From: Thunnus maccoyii
Taxonomy: Eukaryota; Chordata; Actinopteri; Scombriformes; Scombridae
Assembly: GCF_910596095.1 (NCBI RefSeq)
Contig: NC_056542.1
Location: 24,878,457-24,942,456, forward strand
DNA: 64,000 nucleotides
Reading direction: 5' to 3'
This document shows, in pieces, positions 1-27,960 of this stretch. The translations under genes and the position numbers were made by a program. Below the pieces are notes generated by a model. That model worked only from the letters and a program-made list of their open reading frames with translations, ran no database searches and was not told the DNA's origin. Numbering within the stretch: the stretch's first letter is position 1; every line of letters begins with the position of its first letter.

Positions 1-3000
1 CAAATTTAAAATTCAATAACAATCTAACAGTTCTAACTATATACTAATAGCTTTTCATTCTCAATCAGCTGTAAATACCAAGTCAGGAGTCAGTTGAGTG
101 CATGCTACATGTGTTTGTCCTATTACTATGTATTCTTTTATTTCCATACCCTTTAGGCAAGATGTAAATAAACTGTAAATTTGGAAGAAAAAAAGTGCTG
201 ATTTTATCATTTAAAGGTCCAACACATAATCTTGGACTGACAGTTACCAAACAAATGATAACTCCATGGCAGCAGTTCTTGGGGAATTCACAAAATCATG
301 TTTCATAAAACTAGTAGTAATGAAATGGTTCACCGTCTATCTTTAAAGATACATTTATTGTTCATTTTACACTGACTTGAACTGACTGAAACGGGCATTT
401 TTCCTTTTGCCCCATTTTGTTGTTTACACTCTGCAGTGCTAAAAAGGCACTGGCTTTATCCAATTTATATGACTGGTTGGCACAACACAGTTACCTACAA
501 ATAATAATTAATGCAGCATTTCTGGAAAAATACTTTTCATGTACTGCAGTGTTGCTTGACCAAGATGTCATACCATCACCATGAAGGTCTTGTAGGTATT
601 GCAAATGGTGTAACACTTATTTTTTTTAGCATCACAGTATTCCAAGTAGTGCTGATTCCTCGCACGCAGGGCCGTTGTTTATGCTCACGTCTATAGTATC
701 ATCACTGTTACTAAAATAGCAACAGTCCAGACTCTAAACAAATGGAAGATTTCCCTTTCTCCCTATGCTCTCTATTGTTATCAATGTGAAAGTGACAACA
801 ACGCAGCTGGTCGCTATATTTATCCAGGTTATATTTATACACAGAGACAAAAGACAATAAGAGAGACGGCCATCAAAACCTCTGTTTAGACCAACCATTG
901 TTGTCACATAAACAGCTAATAAATAAACACAACAGTGTGTTCTCCCCTTGTCCACCGTACGTGCTTGGATTGTGTGTGCTTTTACTATGTCACGTCTATT
1001 CTGGACTGCTCCAGTGTTTAGTAGGACCCACGTACCTCCACAAATCATCAGCTAACAAGGGGAGTGACCCAGACGACTTCCTGCTCTCTGCTCCTCTCTT
1101 CCTGTCTTCTTGTGCCCTATAGGAAAATCATAGTGCATTAGCAGGTGGTCCTCTAACATCTGTTTATCTGCTTGGTTTTCTCTGAGCAGATGATTTCATG
1201 TCAGTTAAATGACAGATGACCCACTTGCAGAATGAACTTGGGTTATGTGATCAAAAAACTACGAGAGACTTAAGGTCAGGGAAACAGCACTCTGGCAGTA
1301 TTCCTACAACAACAGCACTGCCAGAGCTATTTGGTGGAGTGAAGTAAAAGAGAGGGCGAGGCTGGTACAAAGTGTGCCACTACTCTAAGAGATGATTTTT
1401 CAGCCAAAGCCATGTCCCTCATCAAACAGCTGGGCAGTCTAAACAATCCTGAATGTCGCCGTGAAGTCTCTCATCAGATCTTTCATCTGAACATCGAGAA
1501 CGTCTAAACCCACTCTGGCAGATCCAGCTGCAGATGTGCTGTTCATTTTGTTCTGATTAAAATACCAACATCCGAGTGTGAGGACCTGAGCACTACTGCT
1601 TTCAGAATTACATTATTTTACATCAAGTGAGGGAAATGCTGCTGAGCCATTTATAAAGACACCACAGGGATAAAGATTTGGAAATTTTGATAAAATGTTT
1701 GCTGCAAGAGCTGCTTAAATGTGGAGCTGTTTGCCACTAAGATCTCATCTCCAAATATATTTTTACATGTCAAATGTGTGACAGCATTTCAGGTCTGTTG
1801 GTTGATAGAAAAGTGGCAAGAGCTAAATCTGGTGAAGAAATGATTAAGTAAACTCTGTTCTTCACTCATTCAGTCCATCATCAGTCTGTCATCTGAAGCC
1901 AATCTGATGGATTCAGTCAGAATATACAGTAGATGGGTTCTGTGCATGTTACGTCACTGAAATTCAGAATACAATCAGCAACAACAATAGTAGGAAGACA
2001 GATGGTACGGCAGGCTGGTCTGTAGTCCGCTTGTCTAAATTGTGCTAAGACTAATCAATCAGAGCAGCGTCAAACTTAACAGGATTAATTCGTCAGGCAC
2101 TTGGACTTAATGAGCACCTGCAAGCTGGTTCTGCATCTCTACACTCTGACGTCTATATCTTTAACAAAATATAAATAATCTTCACGTTGTTGCAAACTCT
2201 CTCATCTGCTGAGGAAGACCATGAGATGTAATTGAAATCTCTGGCAGAATTCATATGAGTCTTCCATTAACAGTCAGATGAATCAGTTAACTTACCTAAA
2301 ACAAAGAAACACATAAATTACATATATGTGTGTCAATGGGTCGACAGCTCTGTTGCTAAAACAGTTTCCCATGACATTTTGAACTGAGGGGGAAGTTGTT
2401 GACCCCATCTCTGCTTAGGAATACAAACAATATTTTACCAGAATGGAGCCCTGTTTATTTTACTTGCCGTTTATTTTGCATGCCATCACATGAGTGAATG
2501 AATTTATGCCCAAACACTGCAGGAGGCTCTGAGTGGTTTGCAGGCAGCTGATGTTTTACTGGAATTTCCACTAAGGATGTTTTCTTCCAAACACATGCAG
2601 CCTCTCATTTAGAAAACATCATTAAAACTGATTGAATGAATATCCGCCATGCTTTGGATTTTCTGTCAGTAATCTGATGTTGAATTTTATGAATGAATGT
2701 TAATGACATACAGGATTCACAAATATGGACAACAGATTTCTTGAAAGTTTGAAAGTCAAAGCATTTAAACTATCCTGTTATAAAGAATGAATACAGATTT
2801 GTTTTCTCTCTATCTTGTACTTTCATATTTCATATTTCATATTTCACGTTTCATCAGAGCGGGGCAGAAGAACCCATGTAGACATTCAGTGACACAGTGT
2901 TGGGCACATTGGCACGTAACCTTTCCATGCTGCATTACTGTAAGTAATTTGTTATTGGGTCTTATCTCAGCCTCAAGTGTTCACTGAGACCTATTCTTTT

Positions 3001-3776
3001 GTTGAGCCGTTACCTCTGGGAGTTGATGAGGGTAAAAGGGAAAATGTCAGACTTAAACACATACGGTAAATAACAACCCTCCCCACCCCCCTGACCCCCT
3101 TTTCACCCTCTCGCTCACAAACACACACACACACACATACAAATAATGAAAAGAGGCCAAACATTTTTTGGTTTCAGCTCAAATTATGCTTTTCTTTATC
3201 ATGTATTGTTGTAAATTGAATATCTTTTGGATTTGGACTTTTGGTCAAACAAAACATTTGAAGACGACTCCTTGAGCTCTGGGAGGTTGTGATGGGCATT
3301 TTTCACTATTTTTTTGATATTTCAGAGACTACACATATAATCAAGTAATTGAAAATATAATTGAATTATTAATCAGTAATGAAAATAATCAACATTATTT
3401 TCTTTCAACCATAAATAAAGCAATGAGGCCACTTTTTCTATTCTGTGGTTAAACCTTCCATAACATTTCTAGTCTTTTGGTGCAACACAGAACGTACAGT
3501 TGCCTGTGACTCATTTTTTGCCAAATGAGTTATAACAAGTTAGCCCTCATATACTAGTTGAAAAAATGAAATCTGCCCTCAGATACAATCCTACAACAAA
3601 CAGTCAAACAGTAAAAAACTATTTTATTAATACATGAATTAAAAGAAATACACAAACAAAACACATTGAAAATATATAGGTGTATGTTTCTACTGCAGCT
3701 GTAAAACATTGGCCCTCATAATAAATAATGTGGAAAAAAACTGGCCCACTGCCTGCACTTACTTGCTTACTCAGCA
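1..3776. other. Non-coding DNA, no gene recognised
   Basis: AT-rich sequence with stop codons in all frames. Only short, unsupported open frames occur. The only simple features seen are a short CA run near 3117-3138 and a short 'tttcatatttcatatttca' tandem near 2820-2845. No splice-flanked exon of a known family was recognised. Confidence 0.5.
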
Positions 3777-4330
3777 GCAGTGATGGAAAAAGTATTACTA
3801 TACTTAAGTAAAAGTAGTGATACTACAGTATAACCCTGTACTACCGACCCTGTTATATTATTATATATTACTGATTTGTTACTACTGATGCATTTAGTAT
3901 AAGCAGTATTTTAATGTTGCAGCTGGTTGAGGTGGAGCAAATTCCAATTATTTGATAGTTTAATCAATAATAATGCATCATATTTCCTTAAAGGATCATA
4001 TCGTTAAGACCCTGCACACACATAGTCCTCCCACACTGGTGTTTCCACTTATGCTACTTATGCTCCCTAATTAGACATCTTATCAGGACTGTGTTAGACA
4101 TGTACAAACTGTGCTTGATTGACATCTCCGCCACCCAGCTGTTGATTTTGTTGTGCTGTACCTGCTGGGGCACCAATTTACACCTAACTAGAGATCTATC
4201 AGCCAGGGTTATTGAAAACATCTGTGTTGATAAGCAGAGCCTTTAATTTTCCAATTAACTATATCTGCTACCATAAATGTTTAAATATTTCCCTCTGAAA
4301 TGTAGCAGAGTAGAAGTATAAAGTTGCACC
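3777..4330. repeat. Interspersed teleost repeat, possibly a hAT-type MITE
   Basis: The block opens with a 'gatggaaaaagtattac...cttaagtaaaagtag' motif. It later has 'gcagctggttgaggtggagc' and 'gatagtttaatcaataataatgcatcatat', and ends with text resembling 'ctgaaatgtagcagagtagaagtataaag'. I recognise this order of motifs from repeats found throughout percomorph genomes. The middle part (about 4010-4260) does not match the remembered pattern and may be an insertion. No coding sequence is present. The class assignment is from memory and uncertain. Confidence 0.5.
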
Positions 4331-12347: not shown

Positions 12348-13735
12348 TTCACCACATTAGTTTAATTAGATAAAAGTGGCCAAAGTGCTTCTTTAAGCAA
12401 TAGACTGCTGCTATCATGAGAATGCATGATGGACACATGGACCCTCACCTTTCCTGAGGAACGGAGACTTGTCAGCGTCCATGTATACTTTAGGGACCAG
12501 GCTGAAGTTGGACATGTTGTTGGACTTCATGGTCTTGAAAGAACAGTGCTCTGCTATCCTCTGAATGGTTTCTTCACTCAGATTTCTGCCCAGGAAATTT
12601 GAAATACGTCTTAGAGCTGCAGGAAGGTCCTGGAAGAGGGAGACGTGGACTTTAGTGTATGTGAAGCAACAGATCTTTGTTTTTCTCTTATGGTACACAT
12701 TCTGAAATGGAGCATTAACCTGAAAAATGTCTATTACCTGAACCATCTCTTCATATGTGATGTACATTATTCTGTCTCCCAGCTCTGTGTGTCTCCAGCT
12801 CTTCACATGGTCTGTCCATTTTCCAAACAGCACTGCATTGGACCACATTATAAATTCAGTCAACCATCACTTCACTTTGGCAAAAATAATTTTATGAAGT
12901 TAGAAGTAGGCAAACAAAGATCACAGGCTATACTTTCAGAGGGTCCTGATCTTCAACATTCAAAATTCGAAGTAATATATCAAAATGCCCATTTTCCATT
13001 TGTTCCCTCTACAGCAGAAATACATATACTTATCAAAGTGAACTGTGTATGTGACCTCTGACCTCTGCCATCCAGGAATTTTTCCATGAACTCATCAAAG
13101 GTTCCAGGATCTTCAAGGAAAACTGCCATTTGGTGAAAGTAGTATGAAGACACCATGATGTCCATGGGGTTCCTCATCACATAGATCACCTAAAAGGCAG
13201 AGAGGAGACAGACAAAATGCAACAGTGGGTGTAATCTCATTTTAGTTGCCGGTAATTCAATATTTGAAGGCTACTTTATGTTGAGCCTAATATCACACAG
13301 AGCCTCTACCTTGGCTTTGGAAGTATGGAAGGAGGGGGGCATGAGGCTGTAGGGAAAATGTGTGACCAGCGCCCGTGGAGATGCCAACTGATCTGCAACT
13401 ACGGATAGTCTTTTCTCCTCCAGCCAGGGCACCCTGTCCCAGTTAGGAATGCTTTGAATTGGCGTCAGATCCCCTCCATTCAGCACCAGCGGGAGGATCT
13501 CTTGCATCCAGATTGTACCTGCAGAAAAGAACAGAGGAGCAAATACAGGGCTATCGGAAGCACTAACTTAAATAAATAATTATTATATTATTGAATTATG
13601 AGGCGTAAACACATTGACGCCTGTTAGCATGCGTCCAGGGCCCTTTATTGCATGTCACCCCCCATCTCTCTCTCCCCTCACGTCCTGCCATGTCTCTATT
13701 ATTGGCCATCTAATAAAGGCATAAAATACCCCCAA

Positions 13736-20285: not shown

Positions 20286-20460
20286 AGTTTGTTTTTTTTC
20301 CTTCTATGTGATGACCGTTATCTTCAAGAGCACCTGCATTTTTCTTGAGTTTTATATGATCAAGACAGTCCTCGAGCACACCACTACCTCTTTTTCACAA
20401 GTAATAAATTATAGTATTGCAAAATCCTGTTGTACATTAATTATAATAATAATTTTATTT

Positions 20461-20850
20461 CACTAACCAAGACCACTCCTTCTAGAATATGGATTTAATG
20501 GTTTATTGGGAGTGTGATGGAAGGCAGGGTGAAAAGGAGGAAGGATAGTTAGAGGGATGGTTGGAGAGGGAAGGATGGATGGGGGAAGGGAGAGGGTCGG
20601 GGGGTGTGAGGATGCGGGGGTGAGGGTCGAGGTTGTGGGATGCGGGATGAGGGGGTAGGGGTTGAAGGGATGAGGGTCGAGGGATGGGGAGAAAGAAGAG
20701 CAGGCGGGAAAGAGGGGAAGGAGGGAGTGGATAGGAGAGTGATAGATGAAAGGAGGAGATGCGTCGACGTCGGGGAGGTAAGTGGGAACAGGGGTTGAGA
20801 CTCAGGGTGGGGGTGCTGTCTCGATGATCTGGCATCTGTACGAGGCCCCC
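20461..20850 (-). repeat. Ngaro split repeat B2
   Basis: A 390-nt repeat from 'cactaaccaagacc' to 'cgaggccccc'. It matches 21042-21432 with few differences (one G fewer in a G run near 20600, and t for c near 20663). Its CT-rich minus strand yields proline/serine-rich open frames that are not genes. Confidence 0.92.
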
Positions 20851-20910
20851 CTGTTCCTGTGTTTGAGCAGAGAAGAGAGGAAAGTTAGCGGAGGGGTCGG
20901 GTGGGAGGGA

Positions 20911-21041
20911 CTTGCAAGCTGAGACAGAGGGGAGAGGAGCGGATATGGTGTGTCTAAATACCCTGTGGTGCGGAAATGGGTTGCGTACAAGGCGTGGTCT
21001 TTGGTTCCCGAACTTTGTTTATAAGTCTATAAACTTCATTT
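20911..21041 (-). repeat. Ngaro split repeat A2
   Basis: A 131-nt sequence beginning 'cttgcaagctgag' and ending 'ctataaacttcattt'. It matches 25274-25404 almost exactly (one clear a/g difference) and abuts B1 directly. Confidence 0.92.
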
Positions 21042-21432
21042 CACTAACCAAGACCACTCCTTCTAGAATATGGATTTAATGGTTTATTGGGAGTGTGATG
21101 GAAGGCAGGGTGAAAAGGAGGAAGGATAGTTAGAGGGATGGTTGGAGAGGGAAGGATGGATGGGGGAAGGGAGAGGGTCGGGGGGGTGTGAGGATGCGGG
21201 GGTGAGGGTCGAGGTTGTGGGATGCGGGATGAGGGGGTAGGGGTCGAAGGGATGAGGGTCGAGGGATGGGGAGAAAGAAGAGCAGGCGGGAAAGAGGGGA
21301 AGGAGGGAGTGGATAGGAGAGTGATAGATGAAAGGAGGAGATGCGTCGACGTCGGGGAGGTAAGTGGGAACAGGGGTTGAGACTCAGGGTGGGGGTGCTG
21401 TCTCGATGATCTGGCATCTGTACGAGGCCCCC
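21042..21432 (-). repeat. Ngaro split repeat B1
   Basis: Starts with the same 'cactaaccaagacc' as B2 and ends at the same 'cgaggccccc'. It directly adjoins A2, so the B1-A2 junction mimics the circular junction expected of the replication intermediate. Confidence 0.92.
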
Positions 21433-21475
21433 AAAGAGACTTCAACCAGAGAGGCGAGAATGGGATTTCTTAATG

Positions 21476-21803
21476 TTATCCGGGTCGTGATGGATGTAGG
21501 TATGAGAGTGGGACGAGGCTGGGCATGGTGCTCCGGGAATCCGGGAAATTGATTCCGCTGAGGTAGGTCTGTATGGTGGAAGACTTGATCTTGAGTTGAG
21601 TGTGGGAGAATGTAATGAAGCAGGAGAGGGTAAGAATGTCCGGTGAAGGGAATGGGAGTCCGTGGGAGACGTGAAAGGTTTTAAAGGAATTCCAGCCGGT
21701 GAAGTATGGAGATAGTGTTCGAGGGGTGACGCTGTTGATGATGTTGTCCCGTGAAGTGGTGACCAGTTGTTCCAGTTGCGGGTTCAGTTGTAGATTGTGG
21801 CTG
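21476..21803 (-). pseudogene. Truncated tyrosine recombinase of the Ngaro element
   Basis: A minus-strand frame different from that of the upstream polyprotein overlaps its last codons and runs about 108 codons to TAA at 21476-21478. It contains SPYFTGWNSF and then SSTIQTYLSGI. These are typical of the N-terminal core-binding (SAM-like) domain of DIRS/Ngaro recombinases (pattern S-x-Y-x-x-x-W-x-x-F ... STI-x-x-YLSGI). After LSGI the sequence leaves the family within about 25 codons and enters repeat B1. The catalytic domain with the Arg-His-Arg-Tyr residues is absent everywhere between here and the element end. It was probably lost by an internal deletion. Confidence 0.8.
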
Positions 21804-24800
21804 AAAACGGTGGGACTGGAGTTGGAAGAGGGTTGGAGGCTGGAGCTAGTTGTCTGAATTTCTGAAACATGAAACGAGAGAGTGAATCGGCGATTGCGTT
21901 TTTGTGGCCTGGAATGTGGAGTGCTCGGATGATGAACTGGTGCTGGGCTGAAACCAACGTGAGCTTGCGCACGAACTGCATGATGTCCAGATTGTGTGAC
22001 CGGCCTTTGTTGAGGATGTCGACGACGGCGCTGTTGTCAGAGTGGATGGCGATGGTCTTTTTGGACCATTCATGCCCCCAAAGAATGGCAGCGATGACAA
22101 TCGGGTACATTTCTGAAATGGTGGAGGAAGGGGCCAGGGAAGAGAAGTCGGGTGGCCATTCGGCAGAGAACCGTCTGCCGCCGTAGTTACCACCGAAGCC
22201 GACTGAAGGGGCGGCGTCGGTGTATAGCTGGATGTCATTGGCGTCTGTAACGTGGACGTCGTAAAAGAAGGAGATGCCCTTCCAGGAAGAGAGGAACTGG
22301 TGCCACATTTTTAGTTCCATCTTGCACGCGCTGTCTAGCGTGACGTGGTCGTGGATGGATGGGACGGCGGTGGCTATGGAGAGAGGGTGTGACAAGAAAG
22401 ATCGGCCCTGAGGGATGATGCGGGTGGTGTAGTTGAAATGGCCCAGCAGAGAGAGTAATTGACGTTTGGTGCATGTGTTGGCCATGAGAAAGTTTTGAAT
22501 GAGTAGAGAAATGCGGTGGAGTTTCTCAGTAGGCAGAGATGCTTGGAGTGTAATGGAGTTGAGGGTGATGCCGAGGAATTCCAAGGATGTGCTTGGGCCT
22601 TCTGTTTTCTCTGGAGACAGGGGAACGCCGAGATCAGTGAATGCGGAAATCATTGTGGTGAGACCGTATGACGGGGGCGAAGACGGTGGCGTGACCGTGA
22701 GGAAGTCGTCAAGTAGGTGGATGACGTATGGGAGTTTATAATTGTTGGAAAGAATCCAGCAGAGGGCTTCGGACAATGAGTCGAAAATTTTTGGGCTGCT
22801 CTTGCAGCCGAAGGTTAGACGCACGGCAAAATAGTATGTGCCCTTCCAGGAGACCCCGAAGAGGTGCCAGTAGTCGGGGTGGATGGGGAGGACTTTGAAA
22901 GCACTTGTGATGTCCGCCTTGGACAACCATGCTCCCTGGCCCGCGAGTCGGATGAGGGAAATGGCGTGGTCTATGGTGGCGTATTGCATGGAAAAGTCCA
23001 GGCTGGGAATCAGGCTGTTAATGCTTGGAACAGTGGAACCGTGGGGGGACGAGAGGTCGATGATGAGCCTCTTTTTCCCAGAGTACCTCCTGGTTGCCAC
23101 TCCGATTGGGCTGACTCTGAAAGACGGGAAAGGGGGGCTGGAGAAAGGGCCAATCATGAAGGTGTCATCAACTTCTTTTTGCAGTAGTCTGTCAACTGTG
23201 GTGGGTTCAGACAGGGCTGATTGCAAGTTGTTGCATATGTGAGTGGACTCAGGCGTGGCCTGCAGACCCGGATGGAAACCGTAAGTGAAGCCCTGAATGA
23301 GGAAGTTGACGAACTGGGTGTCTGGATGGTTTTGTAGGGTGGTGGCTAGGGCGTTGATGTTAACGGGGGTATTGAGATGCTTACACAGCTGTTGCTTTGT
23401 CGGGTTGTGTGGGCATGCGGCTCTGGCGTGGGCTCCCCCGCAGAATGAACAAGTGTGGAGGAATTTGCAGCTGGAGGAGCTGCAACTGAGGTCGTTGAAG
23501 TTATTGCAGATCATCCGTCCTCCCTGGTAGAGGACAGGTCTCCCTCTCCTGTCCGTGCCTTTGGGGAGGGGGCCGAGGATGGACGGGTGATCTAAGGCAG
23601 GTTTGGGGGTGATGGATGGTGGGGGAGCCACCGATGGCAAGTAGTGTGGCATGGCTGGGCTTCGCTTGTCTGTTACCGAGGCGCGGGGCAGGGGGGCGGA
23701 GAGGGTGCATGCTGCGGCGGGATGGGAAGGGGCGCCGCACGTTTCGCAGTGCAGAGAAGCGCGAGCTGCGAAAACTTGGCAGTATAGCTCGTGGTCCAAT
23801 GTTCCCCAGTACGTGCCCTGGTTGAACTGTTGGAGGCGACCGGCGGCTTGGGAGGCGAAGAGGATATGATAGGTATAGAAACCGTTGCCGCCGAAACGCA
23901 AGGCCAGGTCGAGAATTAATGACAAGTAATCATCGAGCTCGGACCTGCGGTCGGGGAAGGCTGAACAAATTATGTCTCTATACAATGAGAACGCAAAAGC
24001 GAACTCGGCGACTGTGAGGTCCTTGGAGCGAGCAGGAAGTGGCTGTTTAAGTTCCGAGGGGCTGAATGAGGTGAGCAGTTCCCTGGGGATGTGAGGATTA
24101 ATTGATGTAGGGTGAATGAGTTGAGCGAGATCAATGTAATTACCGGTTAGGATCTGCTGCCTGAGGGTGGGAGACACGGGGGAGGGCCGGGCGGATGCTA
24201 GGGGGCGCACTGGTGGCTGGGCGGTGGCCAGGGTGTAGCTGCTGGATGGAGGTGTGGGAGCCAGGAAAAGGCCGAGGCTGGCCGTGTGTAAGGCTGTAGG
24301 ATAAGGAGGTGTAGGTGCTGTAGTACGGGTAATGCTAGAGTGCGGGTCGTGGGGAGCCGGGGGGTAGGGGAGGAGACAGGGAGGGTGAAAAGAAGAAAGG
24401 GGAGGAACAGGTTGGGTGTAACTCGTGGAACTGCTGGGGCCCGCTGCTGTTTGTGCTGTCTGAGCGGCTGCCGTGGTTGGTGCGGGTGGAGGAGCAGCTG
24501 AGATAGGAGCCAGAGAGGAGGAAGGGATGCTGGGGTGATGGAATGTATATGCATGGGATGTGAGTGCGGCTGAAGAGAAAGTAGGAGGAGGAAATGGCTG
24601 TGGAGCAGAGAGAGCCTGCATAGGGTTACAAGCAGACTGTACTGGGGAGGCTGAGGTTGCTGAGGAGGAAGGTGTGCGTGTGGCGGAGCGACGTGCCGTG
24701 ACGTCACGGACGTCGTCGCGCGCGCGACGTCGGGAACCCGGAAGATCGTGGGAAGATGGACGGGAGAGAGTGCTGTCCTGCAGGGAGCTTGTGTATAATT

Positions 24801-25227
24801 GAAACAGTCTTGCCTTGTTGTCGGTGCGGTGGAAGGGAATGTTATTTTGGCTGAGGAAATGCTTTAAGCGAGCGACGGTCCACTCGGACATGTTTGGGGC
24901 CGAGGAGCGGTCCGTACACCGGTGGCGAGGAGAGCGCTGCGCGCGGTGGCTGCTCCTCTTGGGCGGGCTCCGGGATCTCGAGCGAGGCTGGAGTGAGCGT
25001 CGGGAATAAGTAGCTTCCTTCGGACGCCGAGTACGGGACCTTCCCCTGGAGCCGCTGGGGATCGAGGGCTCGACGATACCGTCGTCGACGGAGGATGAGG
25101 GCCGAGAGGCCGGGATGAGGGAAACCGAGGAGCGCAGGCGAGGCTGCCGGAAAGATCGGACACCGGGGGACTCCGGGACTTCGAACGAGTCCTCGTCCGA
25201 AGCGTTGAGGAGCAGTTCGAGGTCCAT
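21784..25227 (-). CDS. Gag-reverse transcriptase-RNase H polyprotein of Ngaro element (1147 aa)
   Basis: A single uninterrupted frame. Domains in order: acidic start and an Arg/Ser-rich region (about 50-105); a SAP-like helix-extended-helix segment (112-149); a long Pro/Ser/Ala-rich linker (150-350); a Gag-like region with a CX2CX4HX4C zinc knuckle (494-507), a CX7CX4CX3H finger (574-591) and a second knuckle (593-605). The reverse transcriptase has KRLIIDLS (about 719-726), catalytic Asp772 in KADITSAF and Asp840-Asp841 in HLLDDFL. RNase H has Asp1004, Glu1039, Asp1064 and Asp1114 (LYTDAAPS, SEMY, HSDNSA, HIPGHKNAIADSLSR), so all four metal-binding positions remain. It would bind and copy the element RNA. 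Gag and Pol are fused here without a stop or frameshift, and the recombinase frame overlaps its 3' end. No protease or integrase is seen, as expected for this class. Confidence 0.9.
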   Translation of the reverse strand: MDLELLLNASDEDSFEVPESPGVRSFRQPRLRSSVSLIPASRPSSSVDDGIVEPSIPSGSRGRSRTRRPKEATYSRRSLQPRSRSRSPPKRSSHRAQRSPRHRCTDRSSAPNMSEWTVARLKHFLSQNNIPFHRTDNKARLFQLYTSSLQDSTLSRPSSHDLPGSRRRARDDVRDVTARRSATRTPSSSATSASPVQSACNPMQALSAPQPFPPPTFSSAALTSHAYTFHHPSIPSSSLAPISAAPPPAPTTAAAQTAQTAAGPSSSTSYTQPVPPLSSFHPPCLLPYPPAPHDPHSSITRTTAPTPPYPTALHTASLGLFLAPTPPSSSYTLATAQPPVRPLASARPSPVSPTLRQQILTGNYIDLAQLIHPTSINPHIPRELLTSFSPSELKQPLPARSKDLTVAEFAFAFSLYRDIICSAFPDRRSELDDYLSLILDLALRFGGNGFYTYHILFASQAAGRLQQFNQGTYWGTLDHELYCQVFAARASLHCETCGAPSHPAAACTLSAPLPRASVTDKRSPAMPHYLPSVAPPPSITPKPALDHPSILGPLPKGTDRRGRPVLYQGGRMICNNFNDLSCSSSSCKFLHTCSFCGGAHARAACPHNPTKQQLCKHLNTPVNINALATTLQNHPDTQFVNFLIQGFTYGFHPGLQATPESTHICNNLQSALSEPTTVDRLLQKEVDDTFMIGPFSSPPFPSFRVSPIGVATRRYSGKKRLIIDLSSPHGSTVPSINSLIPSLDFSMQYATIDHAISLIRLAGQGAWLSKADITSAFKVLPIHPDYWHLFGVSWKGTYYFAVRLTFGCKSSPKIFDSLSEALCWILSNNYKLPYVIHLLDDFLTVTPPSSPPSYGLTTMISAFTDLGVPLSPEKTEGPSTSLEFLGITLNSITLQASLPTEKLHRISLLIQNFLMANTCTKRQLLSLLGHFNYTTRIIPQGRSFLSHPLSIATAVPSIHDHVTLDSACKMELKMWHQFLSSWKGISFFYDVHVTDANDIQLYTDAAPSVGFGGNYGGRRFSAEWPPDFSSLAPSSTISEMYPIVIAAILWGHEWSKKTIAIHSDNSAVVDILNKGRSHNLDIMQFVRKLTLVSAQHQFIIRALHIPGHKNAIADSLSRFMFQKFRQLAPASNPLPTPVPPFSATIYN

Positions 25228-25273
25228 GATGTGAGTAAGAAGTTTTAAGTTTATGCTGGTGTGTCACAGGGTG

Positions 25274-25404
25274 CTTGCGAGCTGAGACAGAGGGGAGAGG
25301 AGCGGATATGGTGTGTCTAAATACCCTGTGGTGCGGAAATGGGTTGCGTACAAGGCGTGGTCTTTGGTTCCCGAACTTTGTTTATAAGTCTATAAACTTC
25401 ATTT
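25274..25404 (-). repeat. Ngaro split repeat A1
   Basis: The 5' terminal repeat of the element on the minus strand, partner of 20911-21041. The polyprotein ATG lies 47 nt inside its inner end. The outer end 'cttcattt' borders LINE tail sequence 'atatagcactt'. Confidence 0.92.
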
Positions 25405-27960
25405 ATATAGCACTTTTTAAAACGTGCTATAGTACGTAAAAGTGCTTCACATATAGGATAAAATACACACATACAGAAACAAGTATACATACCTACATAC
25501 ATACACACATACACATACATATACATGATATATAGACAATAATTAAAGCACACGACCGAAATAAACAAAACTAAAAGCAAACAGGGAGCGAACACAGACT
25601 CAGCAGATCTGATGTAATGGGGAAGGCTGTTCAAAGTCCAAAGAGCTACAACCACAAAGGACAGTCACCTCTGGATTTAAAATAGGAACAGGAACAGATA
25701 AAAGGCCTTGAGAAGATGATTAGATTTGGCCGACAGCTAGAATAAGGGCTCAACAACTCTGCCATATATGCAGGGGCCAGGCCACGCAAGCATAATTAGG
25801 AAAATTTAGAAGTCAGTTCTGTGCTTTACTGGAAGCCAATGAACAGAGGCAAGAATTGGGGTGAGACCAATGACTAGTTGTAAAGGTAATGAATCACCAA
25901 ATGATTGGCTTATTATTTTAGTATACAGAGTTGTGCAAGGATGATCATTTGCTCTGTTAATGTGTGCATGTCCTTTAGAGAGGGAATGTATTTTAGGAGG
26001 CCAACTCCTTTCTTTCCACTCTGGCTTAGTAAGGTAACATCCAGGGTCTTGGCGTAAACAGGACAGGTTAAGGGGTCAAAGGCCACATATAGGTTGTGGC
26101 TCTTATCTAGCATACATGAGCATGTAAATGTATACCTTGTGGCTGTCTGCAATTGGTTGTAATCCACAAATTGACCAATCACAGATCATTTCTCTGCTCC
26201 TTCTGCAACTATAGTCGAATAGGTTTTCTCTTTGTTTGGTGAGACGAACTGATGCAAATCTTTGTGTGTTCTGTCTCCTTATTGTACAATAATATTTTTT
26301 AATCTTTTTGTATTATTTCATATGTGTGTTTAGTGCTTTCAGACAATTTCCACAACATAGTTTTGGTGAACAGCCCAGCCGCTGCATTTTGCACCAATTG
26401 AAAACGAGCTAGAGAGGACTGATTAATGCAAGTAAAGAGGGGGTTACAGTAGTCTGAGCAAGAAAAGATTAAGGTATACACTACAAGGTCCATGTTTTTG
26501 GCTTTCTCAACTTAAAGAAACAAGACTGAATGAGCATAGTAACATGAGGTTCAAAGTTCAAATGTTGGTCAAAAAGGATACCAAGATTCTTAGAGGTGGT
26601 CTTGATGTTGTTAGTGTGGGTGCCAATATAGTGACTGACCTCCTTAGTAAAACAATTGGGGTAATCAGAAGGACCTCAGTTTTGTCAGTATTGAGATGGA
26701 GGTAATTTTGAAACATCCCATTTGTAACAGAAGCTAGGCAGTCATGAAGGGTCGTAAGGTTATTGAGGTTCTTAGGTTAAACTGAGATGTAAAGCTGTGA
26801 GTCATCGGCATAGCAATGGAAGGAGAAACCACTGGATGAGTTAAGCAGATGGCCCAGAGGTAGCATATATAATAAAAACAAAATAATTCTGACTGACCGT
26901 TGTGGGACCCCACATAAGAGAAGAGCGGAGGAAGACATGTAATTGTTAAAGGCAGGGGCAATGACTGGCAGGACCTTTTTAAGAAATCTAGTTGGAATTA
27001 TATCCGCAGGGCAGGACGATATGAGAAACTATATCCAAGAGATCATGCATGGAAACACGGTTGAACTCAGACAGCAGAACAGGGCAGATAACTAAATCAG
27101 AGTGATAAACTCCAAGGTTGAAATTTGATCTGAGACCACTGATCTTATCAAAAAAAGGAATTCAAACACAATCATCAGAGGAGGTGGCAGGAAATCCACA
27201 ATGAGCAGGATTCAGAAGTTGGTTAATAGTAATATAGTATAGTATTAAACAAAAACCTTTTGCTTGTCATTATGAAGGTAGTGAACATGGAGGTTTGATT
27301 TTTTCCATCTACACTTAGCCTTTCTATAATGGATTGACAACTGGGGCTAGTCTGATCTTATTTGGAGCAATGGTATCTAGGTAAGAGCTAACGAGCACAG
27401 TTAGCAGTTAACAGAGTCATTAATATTGGAAAACTTAGGAATTGTCTTGGACATATCAGAAAAGAGAGCTGAAAACCTAGCTGCAGGGTGATCTTCAAAG
27501 ATGCGAGACTGTATAGTTGTCAACATTGACATTTGTGATCAGAAACTAAGTCAGATATATGCAGGGAGTTCAGAGTCAGGCCAAGCATAAAAACAGGATC
27601 AAGGGTGTGCCCACAGTTATGTGTGGGGCCAGAAACATGTTGCACTAGGTTAAATGATTTTGCAGTGTTTAGAAATTCTGTGGCTAGGGAAATAGAGGGA
27701 TCATCTAAATGTTAAAGTTACCTACAATAATGATCTTGTCAAATTTCAGTCCAACAGATGAAAGCAGATTGGAGAAATCATTCATAAAATTTGTACAAGA
27801 TCAGGGGGGGCGGTAGATAACCATACAACTCACTGGGATGTCACACTCAATTTTAAAAATTTTTATTCCAAAACTATGAAAAGATCCAGCAGCAAATGGG
27901 ACACAGTTGAGGTGGTTCTTATAAACCACCACAATGTCCCAACCACCATGGTCTATGGAC
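25405..27960 (-). mobile_element. Decayed L2-like LINE, split by later insertions
   Basis: Minus-strand translation shows an endonuclease portion: GGWDIVVVYK... then VIYRPP at about 27955-27805, followed by an IVGNFNI-type segment and a THNCG-TL-LV-like segment further on. A reverse-transcriptase YADD region, altered to AMPMTHS in frame, lies near 26800. The C-terminal SCSDYCNPLFTCINQSSLARFQLVQNAAA lies near 26470-26380, and LWTLNSLPHYIRSAES near 25640. Frames are broken throughout. The tail reads 'aagtgctatataaat' on the minus strand and continues beyond the Ngaro insertion as 'aaataaaattattatt' (20460 leftward). About 460 nt at 25880-26340 interrupt the RT between the QNAAA and LASL-type segments and may be another insertion. 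Confidence 0.7.

Follow-up and report, generated by a model that had tools for sequence, protein, structure and literature searches.

Structure of the element

The window, by which we mean the whole 64,000-nt stretch of Thunnus maccoyii DNA that was analysed, carries a retroelement on its minus strand that reads, in sense order, A1, an open reading frame of 1147 codons, B1, A2, a 60-nt spacer and B2. Its features, each with the basis on which it was placed, are the following.

25405..25604, plus strand: flanking interspersed repeat, the insertion target (paralogue comparison)
25274..25404, minus strand: A1, 5' terminal split repeat of 131 nt (repeat comparison)
21784..25227, minus strand: Gag-RT-RNase H ORF, 1147 codons, stop-free (translation, Pfam)
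23407..23508, minus strand: Cys/His clusters in Gag, codons 574-607, zinc-finger-like (read from the translation)
23117..23384, minus strand: intron-like segment of 268 nt, GTAAG...CAG, coding for the N-terminal part of the reverse transcriptase (RT) (gaps in copies)
22561..22971, minus strand: RT domain, codons 753-889, with an LLDDF motif (PF00078 match)
21838..22230, minus strand: RNase H region, at motif level (motif reading and sub-threshold RVT_3)
21476..22036, minus strand: open frame with the N-terminal remnant of a tyrosine recombinase (YR), overlapping the end of the main ORF (comparison with YR-bearing relatives)
21501..21505, minus strand: YR deletion junction, TCATA microhomology (alignment with YR-bearing relatives)
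21042..21432, minus strand: B1 (repeat comparison)
20911..21041, minus strand: A2 (repeat comparison)
20851..20910, minus strand: A2-B2 spacer, 60 nt (repeat comparison)
20461..20850, minus strand: B2, 3' terminal repeat, ending in TTAGTG followed by AA (repeat comparison)
20459..20460, plus strand: TT (AA in the sense direction), junction dinucleotide at the B2 end (tabulated joints)

A preliminary description of this DNA had read the order A1-ORF-B1-A2-B2 at these positions, with nearly identical repeat copies of 131 nt (A) and 390/391 nt (B). Alignment bears out the lengths and the near-identity, and adds the spacer between A2 and B2; the count of differences that the description had proposed gives 1 site for the A pair, and 1 substitution and 1 indel for the B pair. 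Chance is ruled out for repeats of such length and identity, and sister copies with other flanking sequences are built in this way too. The constant end of A1 opens with ATGAAGTTTATAG, preceded by a variable dinucleotide, while the B1-A2 joint reads TTAGTG-AA-ATGAAG, which presumably represents a circle-junction sequence. No further match to the spacer was obtained within the copies at the threshold applied.

As had been described, the 1147-codon frame contains no stop. Its RT is recognised by Pfam (RVT_1, PF00078, E 4e-9) and its RNase H by motif reading together with a weak RVT_3 match (E 0.055, below the cut-off). The Cys/His clusters of Gag, which we take to be zinc-finger-like, keep their cysteines and histidines in L031, a copy of a more distant family in the same genome. 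Upstream of them, Gag codons 117-143 give a weak HeH/LEM match (E 0.08, below the cut-off). A Pfam match was obtained for one of the ten window ORFs scanned, and the Rfam scan of the window gave no match. Searches of the PDB returned weak matches at most for the RT (best E 0.006) and nothing significant for the YR (Cre at E 1.7), also with a two-row profile; single-sequence AlphaFold models were set aside owing to their mean pLDDT of 31.7 (RT-RNase H) and 36.3 (YR). Elsewhere in the window, positions 12417-12866 of the minus strand hold a sulfotransferase-like exon (PF00685, E 2.6e-22), and the left flank of the element at 20311-20402 is an interspersed repeat matched at 88-98% in at least 23 places.

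Loss of the tyrosine recombinase

The search of the host assembly (782 Mb, 54 contigs) that the preliminary description had called for found many copies. We retrieved 20 with their flanks, then 4 more, 11 YR-bearing ones (as stretches of 2.5-4.8 kb, with upstream parts partly outside) and 3 further loci; a tree was built from 34 copies, 16 of them YR-less. In relatives at 91-94%, the interval from RNase H to B1 contains a YR frame that reaches 358 codons at most and includes the motifs GFLRCSEI, HSFRIG and GRWSSPAYHTYI, whose residues we assume to have the roles usual for such motifs. The recombinase family PF00589 was matched above the cut-off in 2 of the 5 YR proteins of one scan (L026 and L027), and below it in L030 and in L033 (26.9 against 27.1).

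About 617 nt of this frame are missing from the window copy, where the two sides are joined at TCATA, and a YR search at this copy matches residues 1-116 of 358 only. The remnant frame and the end of the RNase H frame overlap. An identical deletion junction is present in 15 of the 16 YR-less loci, the sixteenth, L010, being altered there by an additional deletion; L052 and L054 likewise read through the junction, which brings the numbers to 17 copies with the junction and 18 without the YR. The 16 YR-less copies form one clade (support 99/97) nested among YR-bearing copies. Since this single clade has a common junction, the deletion happened once and the lineage multiplied afterwards. Splicing was considered as the cause of the deletion and rejected, as the borders share TCATA and lack the GT...AG form.

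These results bear on the preliminary description of a young Ngaro-type element with complete split repeats, if it is taken to mean a complete and autonomous element. The repeats and the long open frame are as it described them, but the YR catalytic domain is deleted in the window copy and in the whole clade, and only the N-terminal third of the recombinase is matched at the window copy. The element is therefore a YR-dependent derivative, and we find its autonomy hardly credible. More generally, autonomy does not follow from split repeats and a long open frame.

Among the YR-bearing copies there are three look-alike pairs, C22:3483025 and 3511496, C23:25598559 and 25627144, and C19:28408091 and 28464128 (G000), spaced by about 28.5, 28.6 and 56 kb (about twice 28) on three chromosomes; perhaps they belong to a tandem unit of about 28 kb. 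L031 and L032 represent more distant families of the same genome, with about 49-70% protein identity, an RT and a partial YR; L031 has a long open Gag-RT frame.

Spread and integration of the YR-less copies

Repeat pairs could be scored in 13 of the 16 YR-less copies (L009 and L023 are tail-less, and L010 has a partial B1). With 2 substitutions over 519 paired repeat sites the window copy is a young insertion, as the preliminary description had proposed, yet 7 of the 13 scored copies differ nowhere; L012 has only a gap, and the most diverged copy, L024, differs at 9 of 520 sites. The flanks differ from one YR-less copy to another. The YR-less lineage is still spreading, with repeats that are regenerated and often identical.

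In 22 copies a variable dinucleotide (AA in 9) precedes ATGAAGTTTA at the 5' end, and the 3' end reads TTAGTG followed by AA in all 21 readable copies, of which 16 are YR-less and 5 YR-bearing; the internal B1-A2 joint matches this 3' pattern. All eight fetched paralogues of the window target run through the insertion site, and three of them read TTTATTTATATAGCAC exactly. For L019, which is YR-less, the three fetched paralogues all read CATT-(C/G)TTTG unbroken, and the joint itself has the target TT to the left of the element and the element's AA to the right, without duplication. YR-less and YR-bearing copies are thus alike in their ends and in their precise integration without target duplication, and the joint pattern is what YR integration of a circle should give.

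Several copies depart from the standard tail. L009, L023, L025-L028 and L030 are tail-less and read A-body-B. In L052 (4957-6116) the A2-spacer-B2 tail is doubled, giving A-body-B-A-S-B-A-S-B, and L040, truncated in its 5' part, has the same doubled tail (2973-4110). L053 (248-827) is a solo A-spacer-B unit with intact ends and AA at the 3' joint, and is either a recombination remnant or a short mobile unit of the SIRE kind. The tail variants are consistent with recombination between repeats.

Distribution of intact reading frames

Among the candidates scored, the window protein matches uninterrupted from residue 1 to 1147 at eight loci, all of them YR-less. Three loci, C21:23677350, C7:2676158 and C7:31749730, have an open YR frame over codons 1-358 at 96% or more, and each of them has a broken Gag-RT frame; L030 shows an open YR match at 82% with gaps, and its Gag-RT frame is broken too. 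Altogether, the Gag-RT frame is broken or truncated in all 18 YR-bearing relatives examined. A search with positions 22700-23800, in which 40 of 83 candidates were scored, identified L029 and L043 as YR-bearing copies with all or most of the RT stretch. In L039 this stretch lies in two pieces about 2.9 kb apart, and L029, L039 and L043 are otherwise broken. None of the candidates scored in this assembly combines an intact RT with an intact YR; another haplotype, or loci beyond these candidates, could carry a complete autonomous copy.

Selection on the RT and on the recombinase

Variable sites of the present-day copies were divided into private ones, mostly post-insertion, and those shared by at least two copies, mostly inherited through replicating elements, and the neutral expectation for omega was taken from the non-coding part of the element. 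The shared variants are few, sites are treated as independent and the shared/private split is a proxy for inner and outer branches; read in this way, the shared variants of the 16 YR-less copies give an omega of 0.25 for RT-RNase H (S15, N9, p 0.0009), against 0.95 for the private ones (S20, N45). Gag is under little constraint (shared omega 0.82, p 0.26), and codons 1-115 of the YR remnant give 1.59 (S3, N11); the contrast between RT-RNase H and the remnant has a Fisher p of 0.020. Pooled pairwise omega over the eight intact YR-less frames is 0.27 for RT-RNase H and 0.65 for Gag. There is purifying selection on RT-RNase H in the variants common to the YR-less copies.

In the 12 close YR-bearing copies, the shared variants give an omega of 0.34 for the YR (S23, N18, p 0.0006), 0.41 for Gag (p 0.0002) and 0.64 for RT-RNase H (p 0.051). 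Private variants are not neutral in this set (0.60 for RT-RNase H and 0.60 for the YR), so the shared/private split is a poor proxy there. The eight copies that lack the 268-nt segment (next section) have 0.49 for the YR (p 0.09) and 0.67 for RT-RNase H (p 0.096; Fisher 0.59), and all 18 YR-bearing copies, the older and more diverged ones included, have 0.37 for RT-RNase H (p 5e-7) and 0.54 for the YR (p 0.002). Because the contrast between YR and RT-RNase H in the 12 close copies is not significant (Fisher p 0.11) and the RT-RNase H omega is 0.64, the data do no more than suggest that the RT of the YR-bearing set has lost constraint.

The 268-nt segment

Positions 23384-23117 are gone in 8 of the 18 YR-bearing copies (L022, L025, L026, L028, L030, L034, L036 and L038), with borders that are exactly CAGCTGT/GTAAG...TTTCAG/AGTCAG and a pyrimidine-rich stretch before the CAG; L022 and L026 have a further deletion adjoining the gap. 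The segment is kept in L029, L039 and L043, and L042 keeps the donor and most of the segment up to a deletion, while in L027, L033, L035, L037, L040 and L041 the site is hidden by deletions or truncation. Loss of the segment at the splice borders is not seen in any of the 16 YR-less copies of the tree. The donor reads GTAAGT in L029, L042 and L043 and GTAAGC in 16 of 16 YR-less copies, and GTAAGC may possibly be the weaker of the two. Other deletions within the segment are found in L017 (234 nt) and L024 (29 nt). The gap of L017 and a 107-nt gap near 22329-22223 were considered as splice products and rejected, as neither has splice-like borders.

On removal of the segment the joined codon 615 becomes TAG. 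The segment codes for RT sequence that is conserved in L031, and its loss should therefore kill the RT. When the unspliced YR-bearing rows of the tree are counted, the spliced state needs four changes; against the YR-less rows alone it needs one. Some of the branches that separate the spliced rows have moderate support (83/79, 92/85), and the placement of the eight spliced rows in one clade is rejected by the AU test (p 3e-46). We read these gaps, with some reserve, as the possible trace of a spliced Gag message that was reverse-transcribed repeatedly. One old deletion handed from copy to copy by recombination could also have produced them, since segment exchange within the family could make one event look like several; the moderate branch support and the single change relative to the YR-less rows agree with such a history. 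Against it stand the exact GTAAG...CAG borders after a pyrimidine-rich stretch, the four changes and the AU rejection, and we regard the single deletion as possible but on the unlikely side.

Proposed mode of propagation

We consider it probable that the window element is a young member of a Ngaro-like lineage that provides its own Gag, RT and RNase H, has lost its recombinase and is supplied with a YR in trans. The RNA of the element would be copied in cis by its own RT into a circle with TTAGTG-AA-ATGAAG as its B-A joint, which a YR supplied in trans would recombine with the chromosome. The likely source of the YR would be the related copies that combine an open 358-codon YR frame with a broken RT. 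At the level of sequence, an RT that acts in cis in the YR-less lineage is well supported. With less weight, alternative splicing of the 268-nt segment may produce a Gag-only message that stops at the TAG of codon 615, and reverse transcription of this spliced RNA might generate the RT-dead, YR-bearing copies. To our knowledge, circle formation and integration of YR retrotransposons are poorly understood. Here RT and YR reside in separate, closely related sets of copies with the same ends, a natural separation experiment that predicts an RT acting in cis and a YR acting in trans.

If the element were instead an ordinary deletion derivative moved wholly in trans, an intact autonomous element would give both RT and YR, and the open frame would merely be undecayed. 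The copies are young enough for frames to persist by recency, and the shared variants of Gag are near neutral (omega 0.82). This account has to face the low omega of the shared RT-RNase H variants (0.25, p 0.0009), next to an unconstrained YR remnant and neutral private variants, as well as the lack of an intact two-enzyme copy among the scored candidates, and we think it unlikely. We give even less credence to integration without any YR, by host recombination or target-primed entry. The YR-less copies do lack a catalytic YR and have identical repeat pairs among them, but they share their ends and the absence of a target duplication with the YR-bearing copies (AA follows at the 3' joint in 16/16 and 5/5, respectively), and the two empty-site comparisons (window and L019) show clean insertion; this makes entry without a YR very improbable.

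The dependence on a YR in trans that we favour can be extended to a two-part retrotransposon, in which Gag plus RT-RNase H copies and Gag plus YR copies would each be immobile alone, and in which splicing of a shared RNA would both set the ratio of Gag to Gag-RT and make the YR-only partners. We put this forward tentatively, as a speculation that is rather doubtful as a whole.

Class of the element and comparison with known systems

The preliminary description had assigned the element to the Ngaro type. As to class the assignment is supported on architectural grounds, since split direct repeats, the lack of a methyltransferase, a recombinase in closely related copies and integration that leaves no target duplication all favour a Ngaro-like element. 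The assignment does not carry over to the gene content of the window copy, which has no YR and does not unite all enzymes in one copy; a YR is encoded by close relatives and by no member of the window clade. Inverted terminal repeats of the DIRS1 kind are absent, as only two inverted pairs of 25-27 nt at 70-72% were found, neither of them at the ends. No methyltransferase was matched by Pfam in the 1147-codon ORF or in the scanned YR frames, and the overlap of the YR frame with the end of the RNase H frame leaves no room for one between them. DIRS1-like reference elements were sought in the host through the Dam methyltransferase model PF05869, which matched in the E. coli control and nowhere in the whole host genome, so that the only positive control comes from outside this host. 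Viral contigs scanned for relatives of the RT yielded none.

With Ngaro, the element shares the order A1-[ORFs]-B1A2B2, the lack of a methyltransferase and, in its relatives, a YR downstream of RT-RNase H. It differs in that the YR is deleted in a whole young clade, Gag and RT-RNase H lie in one ORF, an ORF for an SGNH hydrolase was not seen and a 60-nt spacer separates A2 from B2. Isolated AB units have been reported in Cafeteria (PMC8547959). Split direct repeats are also found in PAT (Pat1), for which a zinc-finger motif in Gag is a mark (PMC4157794); unlike the present element, PAT elements encode a methyltransferase, although a PAT element without one has been suggested for C. briggsae (PMC4157794), and such a loss from a PAT-like element may have occurred here as well.

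For elements that lack a part, several precedents can be named. SIRE, a derivative of VIPER, consists of A2, about 30 exclusive nt and B2 (PMC6681497), and resembles the A2-60-B2 tail and the solo unit L053; it is a short truncated derivative, whereas the present lineage keeps an open Gag-RT-RNase H frame. Ngaro type 2b of Cafeteria is an internally deleted subtype without the Gag-like ORF1 (PMC8547959). Both it and the present element are without one ORF, ORF1 in the former and the YR in the latter, where the RT is under selection. Among LTR elements, BARE2 is unable to produce Gag and parasitises BARE1, which splices a subgenomic Gag RNA (PMC3735527); the missing part there is Gag, and here it is the integration enzyme. 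A description of an RT-selected, YR-less lineage was not found in the part of the open-licence PMC literature covered, nor was an earlier report of splicing in this order. In the Ty1/Copia element EVD of Arabidopsis, unspliced RNA gives Gag-Pol and the spliced shGAG form gives Gag only (PMC8892269). Splicing was shown experimentally there, in a different class of element, while our evidence comes from genomic copies, which offer a hint that elements of this order make Gag messages by splicing.
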